From NCBI GenBank assembly GCA_027452245.1, contig DAIDGW010000105.1, forward strand, positions 1 to 49,211: a stretch of DNA of 49,211 nt, in the 5' to 3' direction. The notes under the pieces were generated by a model. The model was not told the DNA's origin and did no database searches. It saw nothing but the letters and a program-made list of their open reading frames with translations. Of this stretch, positions 38,584 to 47,460 are shown in pieces. The stretch's first letter is position 1. Each line of letters begins with the position of its first letter. A program made the position numbers and the translations under genes. This DNA comes from Acidobacteriaceae bacterium. Its GTDB lineage: Bacteria; Acidobacteriota; Terriglobia; Terriglobales; Acidobacteriaceae.

Positions 38584-39294
38584 CTAATGTTGTGGGAACG
38601 TCTTCTGCAGCGCAGCCTTCAGTTCGTCTGCTTTGAATCCGAAGGGCCCGGGCTTGCTTTTATACGTGATTCGTCCGTGGTCATCGATCACGTAGAGCCG
38701 GTCCGGCCATGCTGTGTACGTAGTTTCCGTGGAGTTTCCGAATTCATCCAGAACAGCCGGAATCTTGATTCCGAGTTTCCGTACACACGTTCCCGCCAGT
38801 GACGCCCGCTCATCTTCGGTACGCGGACTCGCGAATACGACCCGGTCCTTGAGGTTGCTCTCCATCTGCCAGACGTCGCTCGGATGCGCTTCCGTGATGT
38901 AGACCACCAGGAACGCAGCGCGGTTTCCATACTCTTCGTACAGCTTGTTGAGGGCGGGAACCTCCCGCCGGAAAGGAGGTCAGGTATAGCTGCCGAAAAT
39001 CAATACCACCGGCTGATGCAACGCAACCAGGCTGGACAGTTGCACCTTCCCGCTCTTGTCCAGCTTTGTCAGGGTGAAGTCGGGAGCGCGATCGCCAGTC
39101 TCCAATGAGCCTGCCCGCGCATGGGTCCACAGCGTCTCGAAAGGAAATACCAGAAATGCCACCGGCGCCGGAACCTTCATCATGAACCGCCCAAAAGCTT
39201 CCGGCGGGCGCTCCATGACCGTATATAAATACGTGCACCCGATAACCCACAGCACTAGAATTACCGCGATCGCACGCACCATAAGTGTTTTCAC
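38584..39294 (-). CDS. Deiodinase-like redoxin, selenoprotein with Sec at codon 105
   Basis: Reading through the in-frame TGA at 38980-38982 joins two fragments into 236 residues. A transmembrane helix (about 5-25) is followed by a thioredoxin-fold domain. The active site reads F-G-S-Y-T-U-P-P-F, which aligns with animal iodothyronine deiodinase (G-S-C-T-U-P-P-F), and 'VVYITEAHPSDVW' after it matches the deiodinase I-Y-I-E-E-A-H-x-S-D-G-W motif. A near-ideal bSECIS hairpin follows the UGA. GTG at 39294 has AAGGTGGAG upstream; GTG 39378 and ATG 39282 are alternatives. Bacterial members are not known to act on thyroid hormones; a membrane-anchored peroxidase or reductive dehalogenation-like role is inference. 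Taking the TGA as a stop would leave two useless halves, each lacking part of the fold. Confidence 0.93.
38953..38982 (-). promoter_or_regulatory. UGA-Sec codon and bacterial SECIS hairpin (deiodinase-like gene)
   Basis: Immediately after the UGA (38982-38980) the transcript forms a perfect 7-bp stem, GGCGGGA (38969-38963) with UCCCGCC (38959-38953), closing a GGU loop (38962-38960). The stem starts 11 bases and the loop G 18 bases after the UGA. From memory of the E. coli fdhF element, the upper stem there begins at about the same distance and the loop also contains GGU, the contact for SelB. It meets every requirement I know for a bSECIS. Confidence 0.88.
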
Positions 39295-39435
39295 AGAATT
39301 CTGCTCCACCTTATTGGGTCTGTTTTGAGCTATCTTCCCCAGAAAGAATTCCGCGATTATACGGCTCCGATCAGCCACAGCAATAATAAGAAAAGGCTAT
39401 CCACCGGGCGCGCTCACCCTCCCTAGAGCGATGAA

Positions 39436-45778: not shown

Positions 45779-46549
45779 TCATGCATTCTCAATGCGGAAG
45801 GCGCCGGGGGGCGGCCAGCCGGGCTGCACATAGGCGAAATAGAGCGCGTCCAATTGCGCCCAAAGGATGTCGCACTTATCGCGCAGGGCCTGAGTGGCGA
45901 GTTCCTGTTCGGCGCGCGTTTTCGCATTCTCGAAGACGTAGTTGATGGCGAACTTGGAATCGTCGGGAGCCTGGTAAAGGCGGGCTTCGAAATAATCGAG
46001 GCCGCCGGCGAGCCAGGGATAATGCTGGCGCAGTTTTTCCACGCGCAACGTAATCAGTTCCGGCGAGAACATCTCTGTCAGCGAGGAGGCAACGGCCTCC
46101 AATAGCGATCGATTGCGGACGATGTTGAGGTATTCGTTCACGGCGAAGCGGGTGCCGGGGAGGATGCCTTGTCCGGTGCGGACCTGCTCCGGATTGAGAC
46201 CGGTTGCTTCGGCGAGTTTCAGCCAGCGCTTGATGCCGCCTTCGCTGGTGGCGTCGCCATCGTGATCGACCACGCGTTTACGCCAGGCGCGGCGGAAAAC
46301 CGGATCGGGGCCGCGCGAGAGAATGATGGAATCCTTGATGGGGATGATGCTCTGGTAGTAATAGCGGTTCAGGGCCCAAGCCTGCAATTGTCCGCGGCTG
46401 AGGCGGCCTTCGTGCATCATCAAGTGGAACGGGTGCTTGTGGTGATAGCGTTCCTCACCGACCGCGCGCAAGCGGGCGCGCAATTCATCAAAAGAGAGTA
46501 AGGCGTTTGCCTGGTCGGCCTGATTTGGTTCTACAGATCGAACTGCCAT
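45779..46549 (-). CDS. pqqC: Pyrroloquinoline quinone synthase PqqC
   Basis: A 256-residue PqqC, the cofactorless oxidase that performs the final ring closure and eight-electron oxidation giving PQQ. Family signatures are clear: 'RYHHKHPFHLMMHEGRLS', 'QLQAWALNRYYYQSIIPIKDS', 'DHDGD', 'GGIKRWLKLAEA' and 'HYPWLAGGLDYFEARL'. Its first 19 bases overlap the end of pqqB, so the two are translationally linked. pqqD and pqqE, which commonly follow, are absent: an unrelated plus-strand oxidoreductase gene ends 35 bases away. Confidence 0.96.
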   Translation of the reverse strand: MAVRSVEPNQADQANALLSFDELRARLRAVGEERYHHKHPFHLMMHEGRLSRGQLQAWALNRYYYQSIIPIKDSIILSRGPDPVFRRAWRKRVVDHDGDATSEGGIKRWLKLAEATGLNPEQVRTGQGILPGTRFAVNEYLNIVRNRSLLEAVASSLTEMFSPELITLRVEKLRQHYPWLAGGLDYFEARLYQAPDDSKFAINYVFENAKTRAEQELATQALRDKCDILWAQLDALYFAYVQPGWPPPGAFRIENA

Positions 46550-47460
46550 CCATCCTCCGCGATTTGCCAGCCGGCGTCGCGCACCTGGCGGAATGCGGCG
46601 CCGGACTCGTCCAGCATGGGGTTGGTGTTATTTATGTGCAAATAGATTTTACGTGGGCGGCGCAAAGCCGCCAACCGGCTGAGGCTTCCTTCCGGGGAGG
46701 AAACAGGGACGTGGCCCATCTGGCAGGCGGTTTGCCCGGAGCCCTGAAGGCCGATGAGTTCGTCATCAGTCCAGAAAGTGCCGTCGAACAAAAGCAGATC
46801 GCAGGCATCAAGTTCGTTGAGCAGTGCGGCGTCGATTTGAGGAACTGCGGGCATGTAGGCGAGGCGCTTGCTGGAAGCAGAATCAATGATGAAGCCGAGG
46901 GAGGATTCGCGAGGGTCAAGTTCAGAGCGGTGGGCAGAAGGGACGTAAGCCGGGAAATGCGATCGCAGGGAAATCGCGCGGCAGCGGAGGCCGGAGTCGC
47001 TGTCTTTTGCGTTGCACAATGGGAAAGGCGTGCCCGGAACGAAGTCGCTCCAGCTGGCTTGATCGGGGACGCGGTGGAGCATGGAAAAGAAGGAATTATC
47101 TTCGCGAAGCAGACGGCGCACGGAGGACGTGCAGTGGATGCGCAGTGGCTGCAACTCGCGGAGGAGAAGCAATCCGAGAACGTGATCGAGATCGGCGTTG
47201 GCGAGAAGGGCTCCGACGACAGGAGAATCACGCGGCGCCGTGCGGGGGTGAAGTTCGGGAGTGGCTTCGATTTGCGCGCGAAGGTCGGGAGAGGCTCCGA
47301 GGAGGAACCAGGATTGGTCATCTGCGCTGATCGCGACTTGCGTCTGTGTGCGGGCTTTGCCGTGGAAGGTTCCGGCGCGGAGGGAGCGGCAATTAGGGCA
47401 GGCACAATTCCACTGGGGAAATGCTCCGCCGGCGGCTGAACCGAGAATCTTGACCCGCAT
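46531..47460 (-). CDS. pqqB: PQQ biosynthesis protein PqqB
   Basis: A 309-residue metallo-beta-lactamase-fold protein of the PqqB family, thought to hydroxylate a precursor on the route to PQQ. It starts 'MRVKILGSAAGGAFPQWNC', the usual beginning. The CxxC after it (C-A-C-P-N-C) and 'LLANADLDHVLGLL' in place of the canonical HxHxDH motif are family features. No pqqA-like peptide with an E-x-x-x-Y motif is seen in the bases before it on this strand. Confidence 0.96.
   Translation of the reverse strand: MRVKILGSAAGGAFPQWNCACPNCRSLRAGTFHGKARTQTQVAISADDQSWFLLGASPDLRAQIEATPELHPRTAPRDSPVVGALLANADLDHVLGLLLLRELQPLRIHCTSSVRRLLREDNSFFSMLHRVPDQASWSDFVPGTPFPLCNAKDSDSGLRCRAISLRSHFPAYVPSAHRSELDPRESSLGFIIDSASSKRLAYMPAVPQIDAALLNELDACDLLLFDGTFWTDDELIGLQGSGQTACQMGHVPVSSPEGSLSRLAALRRPRKIYLHINNTNPMLDESGAAFRQVRDAGWQIAEDGWQFDL

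Follow-up and report, generated by a model that had tools for sequence, protein, structure and literature searches.

An in-frame UGA codon and a predicted deiodinase-like selenoprotein in an Acidobacteriaceae genome

Introduction

Does a lone TGA codon inside an otherwise open frame end a gene, or does it encode selenocysteine (Sec) in a protein that standard annotation breaks in two, and what would such a protein do? The question is raised by contig DAIDGW010000105.1 of a soil Acidobacteriaceae bacterium (assembly GCA_027452245.1), of which the 49,211 nucleotides analyzed are referred to as the window, and by a minus-strand gene within it whose product resembles the iodothyronine deiodinases (DIOs); this gene and its counterparts in relatives are called dio below. 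Bacterial deiodinase-like proteins in Sec and Cys forms were described from the Sargasso Sea in 2005 (four Sec and six Cys, function not assigned; Zhang and others, PMC1088965) and 22 deiodinase-like selenoproteins from Global Ocean Sampling (GOS) data in 2008 (PMC2398784). Reviews of 2022 (PMC9312934) and 2026 (PMC13188914) give the family motif as UxxC, and the latter describes the functions of such proteins as mostly uncharacterized. It is argued here, with good confidence, that the window gene encodes a deiodinase-family protein in which UGA is read as Sec by the genome's own SelA, SelB, SelD and tRNA-Sec together with a downstream hairpin, the product being likely a membrane-anchored selenol redox enzyme.

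Results

The minus-strand frame from a GTG at 39294 to a TAG at 38584 contains one internal stop only, the TGA at 38982-38980, which is codon 105. The GTG start is an assumption, the frame being open further upstream (270 amino acids from stop to stop). Translation table 11 splits the gene into open reading frames at 38980..39378 and 38584..38907, and in the joined protein the TGA lies within FGSYT-U-PPF, followed by EAHPSD at residues 135-140. The single interruption, the two motifs (GS-x-T-U-PPF being common with DIOs) and the two pieces left by ordinary gene calling had all been proposed in an earlier reading made from the DNA letters (the sequence-only reading), and all were found. The joined protein matches PF00837 (1.3e-33, 116.8 bits against a gathering cut-off of 27; profile positions 72-236 of 237) and has both features of this family, a GSxTUPPF active site, its Sec predicted, and EAHPSD. 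The match to NF038285 (deiodinase_rel; profile 178-340 of 347 covered) scored 195.9 bits, below the curated cut-off of 250. Solved structures matched by sequence were DIO2 (3.8e-23) and DIO3 (2.2e-21), which are also the nearest solved folds, lying approximately 3 Z units above the next.

Relatives have a TGA at this codon as well. A PF00837 match is present in 90 of the 298 genomes of the order, and in 56 of the 298 it is about 500 bp or longer and contains exactly one in-frame stop, a TGA (a short match in G168 is not counted). Among distinct order-level sequences codon 105 is TGA in 56/57 and TGC in one. In named genome contigs 142 relatives were found and the best 80 fetched, a sample biased towards the closest relatives; TGA occupies codon 105 in all 79 of those matching the motif (L140 has no motif match). 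Going by their labels, these contigs come almost exclusively from Acidobacteriota, among them Edaphobacter lichenicola X5P2, Acidicapsa dinghuensis 4GSKX and Occallatibacter savannae AB23; one is labelled Nevskia soli. At the level of the phylum, 20 of 396 genomes match at E <= 1e-20, with one TGA in 18, two in one and none in one, and of the 20 loci fetched 19 match the motif and 19/19 have TGA. The order, named-contig and phylum sets overlap, with some genomes shared. Because the TGA recurs in this way a sequencing error, which the sequence-only reading had set as the alternative to a genuine TGA, is very unlikely. SelA scores over the cut-off in 55 of the 56 TGA genomes as against 80 of 242 others (Fisher p 2.4e-21, kinship ignored).

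Were the TGA a true stop, the locus would hold two separate genes or a decayed pseudogene, as the two pieces given by table 11 might suggest, and genome G075 does keep a TGA gene beside a damaged sel region. Against this stand the presence of TGA at the same codon throughout the order and, a few cases aside, in the phylum too, conservation of the protein on both sides of it, synonymous conservation behind it and the co-occurrence with SelA, and a true stop is considered highly improbable.

The only long Cys match of the group in the order is the TGC case (L027, G255:C34:117117-117608), from a genome with no SelA over the cut-off, and this represents a candidate Sec-to-Cys reversion. Separately, 27 genomes of the order have a second PF00837 paralogue (profile approximately 70-216), mostly of about 310-400 amino acids and with no in-frame stop; SelA is over the cut-off in 25 of these 27 (a partial match in G210 is left out).

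The sequence-only reading had proposed that homologues be inspected for Cys or Sec in this column. Genome DNA has TGA there, and once TGC, and among database homologues (the query and the best 120 of 765) the column holds Cys or Trp, with Arg, Gly or Ser in five (P0059, P0069, P0068, P0073 and P0046). Trp, in 49 of these 121 rows, would be expected if UGA were read as another amino acid, through genetic code 4 or a suppressor tRNA. All 49 Trp rows are of jgi source and the closest of them match TGA loci in genomes (P0010 to L107 at 98% and P0025 to L129 at 95%), so that Trp in this column is probably an annotation product of reading TGA by code 4. No TGG was seen at codon 105 in any genome locus read, and the gene has a Sec hairpin and its genome the Sec machinery; decoding as Trp or another residue is accordingly regarded as scarcely credible.

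That machinery is present in the window's own assembly (6.23 Mb, 274 contigs, completeness 97.6%). SelA (549 bits), SelB (371) and SelD (365) are all over their curated cut-offs, and a tRNA-Sec was found by RF01852 (68.8 bits) and also by ARAGORN (tRNA-SeC, anticodon TCA), two weaker RF01852 matches at or over threshold being called tRNA-Ser and tRNA-Leu. The absence of selA, selB or tRNA-Sec, which the sequence-only reading had named as the result that would count against it, was therefore not seen. The SelD gene of this genome itself contains one in-frame TGA, at ...AAG-U-ASK... in L020, which we take to be the usual position of the SelD active-site Cys. In about 20 genomes of the order (e.g. 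G014, G087, G161) SelA matches the selA profile in two in-frame blocks, approximately 1-140 and 139-454, and among the matches listed with both blocks the gap between them is approximately 20-40 codons, indicating an insertion in the SelA of this lineage.

Downstream of the UGA lies the hairpin that the sequence-only reading had described as having bacterial Sec insertion sequence (SECIS) geometry: seven pairs closing a GGU loop, starting at the 11th base past the UGA (38969-38953). RNA folding and codon comparison were used in place of bSECISearch. Among 95 testable codons in the 56 TGA sequences, the hairpin codons 109-113 are the top five in synonymous conservation (codon 111 GAG in 54/54, 112 GTT in 51/53, 110 CGG in 54/56) and codon 114 ranks eighth. 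The 135 rows reduce to 98 distinct 45-nt sequences, and 96 of these retain all four core pairs of the stem. In 200 synonymous-codon shuffles the number retaining them averaged 13.4 and never exceeded 22, and with the partner arm slid by 1 to 3 bases it was 0 or 1. The two failures are L124, with one broken pair, and L171, where by our own reading the stem is re-registered by one base. The apical loop of the 98 is AGGTT in 90, AGGCT in four, AGGTC in two and two others once each. A SECIS-type hairpin with G in the apical loop, as looked for in bacterial selenoprotein genes, is present, and binding by SelB is predicted.

In distant relatives, stems of different sequence were seen by eye at a similar position, e.g. 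GUCGCC-AGGUC-GGCGAC in L026 and CCGCUC-GGUC-GAGCGG in L186, with GAAGAUC-GGU-GAUCUUC in L183 some bases further downstream. Of 16 phylum loci that do not belong to the family of the window, 10 likewise showed a GGU apex, the exceptions being L185 and L188 (GGC), L192 and L193 (GGGC) and L187 and L190 (neither); the stem of L180 is weak. The Cys version, L027, has AACACC where the loop would be. Since comparison, through synonymous conservation and retention of core pairs, singles out the hairpin even with an unremarkable single-fold energy, it is judged to be under selection at the RNA level. Together with the recurrence of the TGA and the genes for its decoding, these data indicate that UGA is almost certainly decoded as Sec.

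S102, T104, Y132, E135, H137 and Cys170 are conserved. The last is invariant in 69/69 homologues, whose column 105 in the database is Trp, Cys or in a few cases Arg or Ser. A wider set of 160 rows (the window, 57 order, 79 named-contig and 19 phylum loci and four database proteins; 123 distinct proteins) contains 146 with Cys170 alone, six with a Cys at +48 or +50 from Sec instead and three with one at -2 instead, in the sequence GSCTUPPF. No row combines two of these three candidates and five have none: L191 ends at a second TGA, L187, L192 and L193 have other Cys residues after Sec, and L027 has no such Cys. A pattern of one Cys per row would fit a resolving cysteine that changed place, and Cys170 is a candidate for the second, resolving Cys of a 2-Cys peroxiredoxin mechanism. 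The three -2 rows (L183, L185 and L188, of one phylum family) read FGSCTUPPF, with Cys where the DIO3 chain has it and without a further Cys downstream of Sec.

These residues bear on a second account of function, in which the protein is a true dehalogenase, reductively removing iodine or bromine from halogenated aromatics of the soil by the same half-reaction as animal deiodinases. In keeping with this, DIO2 and DIO3 are the nearest folds by the margin given above, five residues of the Dio2 proton relay described in the literature (Ser127, Thr129, Tyr157, Glu160 and His162) map to the invariant S102, T104, Y132, E135 and H137, and the proximal Cys of L183, L185 and L188 corresponds to the recycling Cys of DIO1, shared by DIO1 and DIO3. 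The Dio2-His182 counterpart is, however, absent, its column being Pro157 in the window and Pro in 153/159 relatives, and the Dio3-Arg275/Dio2-Lys241 clamp column is Pro215 in the window and Pro in 139/159, with the adjacent K214 being Lys or Arg in 117/159. The description of the protein as deiodinase-like thus holds for family and fold, whereas these two sites of the animal enzymes are not clearly kept. None of the 10 window neighbours scanned matched a family linked to halogen metabolism, and PMC1088965, in the part consulted, speaks against a role with thyroid hormone. A true dehalogenase is accordingly considered unlikely.

In some relatives dio lies close to genes for Sec decoding. Of the 120 loci L054-L173, in which certain genomes appear twice, 24 have selA, selB or both beside it, and in Acidicapsa dinghuensis (L154) selD, selA, selB, an ahpD-like gene and dio follow one another on one strand. 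The ahpD-like gene has a TGA of its own, in a CPYU motif, and its relative P0123, from L161 and written with Cys for Sec, has matches to PF02627 and TIGR01926 (the latter at 105.5 bits). The ahpD-like gene is upstream of dio in 14 of 18 loci inspected, and not there in L086, L142, L162 and L163. A TGA-type AhpD occurs in 30 of the 298 order genomes, 26 of which also have a TGA dio, and 14 of the 26 have the two genes adjoining by coordinates. Within the SelA genomes the co-occurrence of TGA-type AhpD and TGA dio has p 2e-8 (kinship ignored). In G096 both TGA genes are side by side with selA far away.

Membership of tRNA-Sec in this operon was considered and rejected, since among 13 loci searched with Rfam it was seen only in Edaphobacter L086/L162, which are one stretch. 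There, in E. lichenicola X5P2 (L162 4752-4842), tRNA-Sec precedes dio by approximately 160 bp and shares its strand, selA and selB being nearby on the opposite one. An assignment of function from the window's own neighbourhood was also abandoned: of seven neighbours, six have no match covering more than half of their length in any of the 120 loci and the seventh has one in two loci, so that the dio locus is not syntenic in relatives. Elsewhere in the window, at 45779-47460, a TENA/THI-4/PQQC-family gene adjoins a beta-lactamase-fold gene, possibly pqqC and pqqB.

The features of the gene are collected in Table 1. Its N-terminal segment had also been considered as a lipoprotein signal, V-I-G-C20; this was dropped, Cys20 lying outside the conserved columns and a membrane anchor being likelier.

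Table 1. Position and basis of features assigned to the dio gene of the window
Feature	Position	Strand	Basis
Deiodinase-like selenoprotein gene	38584..39294	minus	237 codons including the stop; start taken to be GTG; PF00837 and DIO2/DIO3 matches
Predicted N-terminal membrane helix, residues 2-27	39214..39291	minus	AlphaFold2 helix 2-27; hydrophobic; flank charges
TGA codon 105, predicted Sec at active site GSYT-U-PPF	38980..38982	minus	Same codon across relatives
SECIS-like hairpin GGCGGGA-GGU-UCCCGCC	38953..38969	minus	10 nt after UGA; synonymous conservation; intact core stems
EAHPSD motif, codons 135-140, bordering the deiodinase-type insertion	38875..38892	minus	E135 and H137 invariant
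Cys170 codon, candidate resolving cysteine, +65 from Sec	38785..38787	minus	Invariant 69/69; 146/160 in wider set

Discussion

The TGA and its recurrence, the constraint on the RNA, the genes for Sec decoding, the PF00837 match and the residue conservation are read directly from sequences, and the chemistry proposed for the protein is deduced from its fold and residues. SelB bound to the hairpin would bring Sec-tRNA to the UGA. The Sec105 selenolate, at the N-terminus of helix 106-122, would then attack an electrophile, more likely the oxygen of a hydroperoxide than an aromatic halogen, with the conserved Ser/Thr/Tyr/Glu/His set relaying a proton. Cys170 may capture the oxidized selenium as a selenenylsulfide, from which an outside thiol reductant would regenerate Sec105; in some relatives this could perhaps be the neighbouring AhpD-like CxxU selenoprotein. 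A role in peroxide or thiol redox chemistry is predicted as the rather probable outcome, and dehalogenation is given a distinctly smaller chance.

A more far-reaching proposal, put forward tentatively as one that may well prove wrong, is that the deiodinase fold of the Acidobacteriota is a selenium peroxidase system, encoded in several genera by an operon selD-selA-selB-ahpD(CxxU)-dio(U) whose AhpD-like selenoprotein recharges the dio product; the partner Cys would have moved among +65, +48/+50 and -2, and GSCTUPPF would be the source layout of animal DIO1 and DIO3. If true, this would be a selenium counterpart of AhpC/AhpD that brings its own decoding machinery.

Several observations weigh against these interpretations. 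The folding energy of the hairpin is unremarkable (z -0.04 to -1.48 over the four stretches folded), and the thermodynamic z-score was dropped as proof of a SECIS, being not significant alone, with competing folds common. By our own count the hairpin is the minimum-energy fold in 15 of 29 TGA regions (51 nt from the UGA, the window's included) and a competing fold wins in the other 14, often one in which the 5' arm pairs with bases directly following the UGA; a ribosome positioned at the UGA would presumably cover such bases. Cys170 is missing from 14 of the 160 aligned rows. G075 keeps a TGA dio gene yet has no SelA over the cut-off; at this locus (L063 1-3630) SelB lacks its N-terminal part and lies directly behind a DabA gene, with a TGA-type ahpD and dio present, and a recent loss or decay of Sec decoding, or a misassembly, is possible. 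A TGA-type AhpD was looked for in the window's genome at E <= 1e-30 and not found, and because it has only a 37%-identical stop-free homologue the pairing of AhpD with dio fails for the window's own gene. Finally, the N flank of the membrane helix is the more positive in 45 of 64 and the less positive in eight, which suggests that the catalytic domain faces the periplasm, and a periplasmic catalytic domain fits badly with a cytoplasmic AhpD-like reductant.

A Sec deiodinase-like protein is now placed in named Acidobacteriota, several of them strain-designated (AB23, 4GSKX, X5P2), and its function thereby becomes testable. The three layouts of the partner Cys offer a direct test of selenium recycling in deiodinases. 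Standard gene calling splits such genes, and public metagenome proteins probably carry a false Trp at the Sec position.

In the portions of the literature searched, no report of the selD-selA-selB-ahpD-dio arrangement was found, and texts mentioning both deiodinase and Acidobacteri appear to be on other subjects. A tool paper of 2025 (PMC12013277) credits Occallatibacter riparius with three known selenoprotein genes, their names not being in the text consulted, and its supplement may already contain this deiodinase-like protein. What is apparently new is the Acidobacteriota group, the conserved candidate partner Cys170 with its alternative positions, and the operon in relatives.

The window protein is of the same kind as the bacterial deiodinase-like selenoproteins described previously, a PF00837 protein in Sec and Cys forms with a bacterial SECIS; those sets (PMC1088965, PMC2398784), in the parts consulted, are marine and metagenomic, whereas the present proteins are from named Acidobacteriota and some are tied to sel genes. 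In place of the UxxC of the reviews (PMC9312934, PMC13188914) they have UPPF and a distant Cys at +65. With animal DIO1-DIO3 (9h48, 4tr3) the protein shares the fold, GS-x-T-U-PPF, EAHPSD, and a Tyr and a Trp, and the animal enzymes are also membrane-anchored (PMC9141512). It differs from them in having no -2 Cys, no match to Dio2-His182 and no clear clamp residue, in a SECIS that is of bacterial type and inside the coding region, and in a partner Cys at +65, eight alignment columns before the distal Cys of the DIOs. Peroxiredoxins (AhpE) and ResA-type thiol-disulfide oxidoreductases are structurally less similar to it than DIO2 and DIO3, and in contrast to these it has Sec for Cys and a deiodinase-type insertion. 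The neighbouring gene of relatives, with its CPYU, is of the same type as the AhpD-like CxxU selenoproteins (TIGR01926, CMD fold). A single Prx-like/AhpD-like neighbour pair has been reported from GOS reads (PMC2398784); in these relatives the AhpD-like gene, unlike those known, adjoins a deiodinase-like selenoprotein gene and selD-selA-selB.
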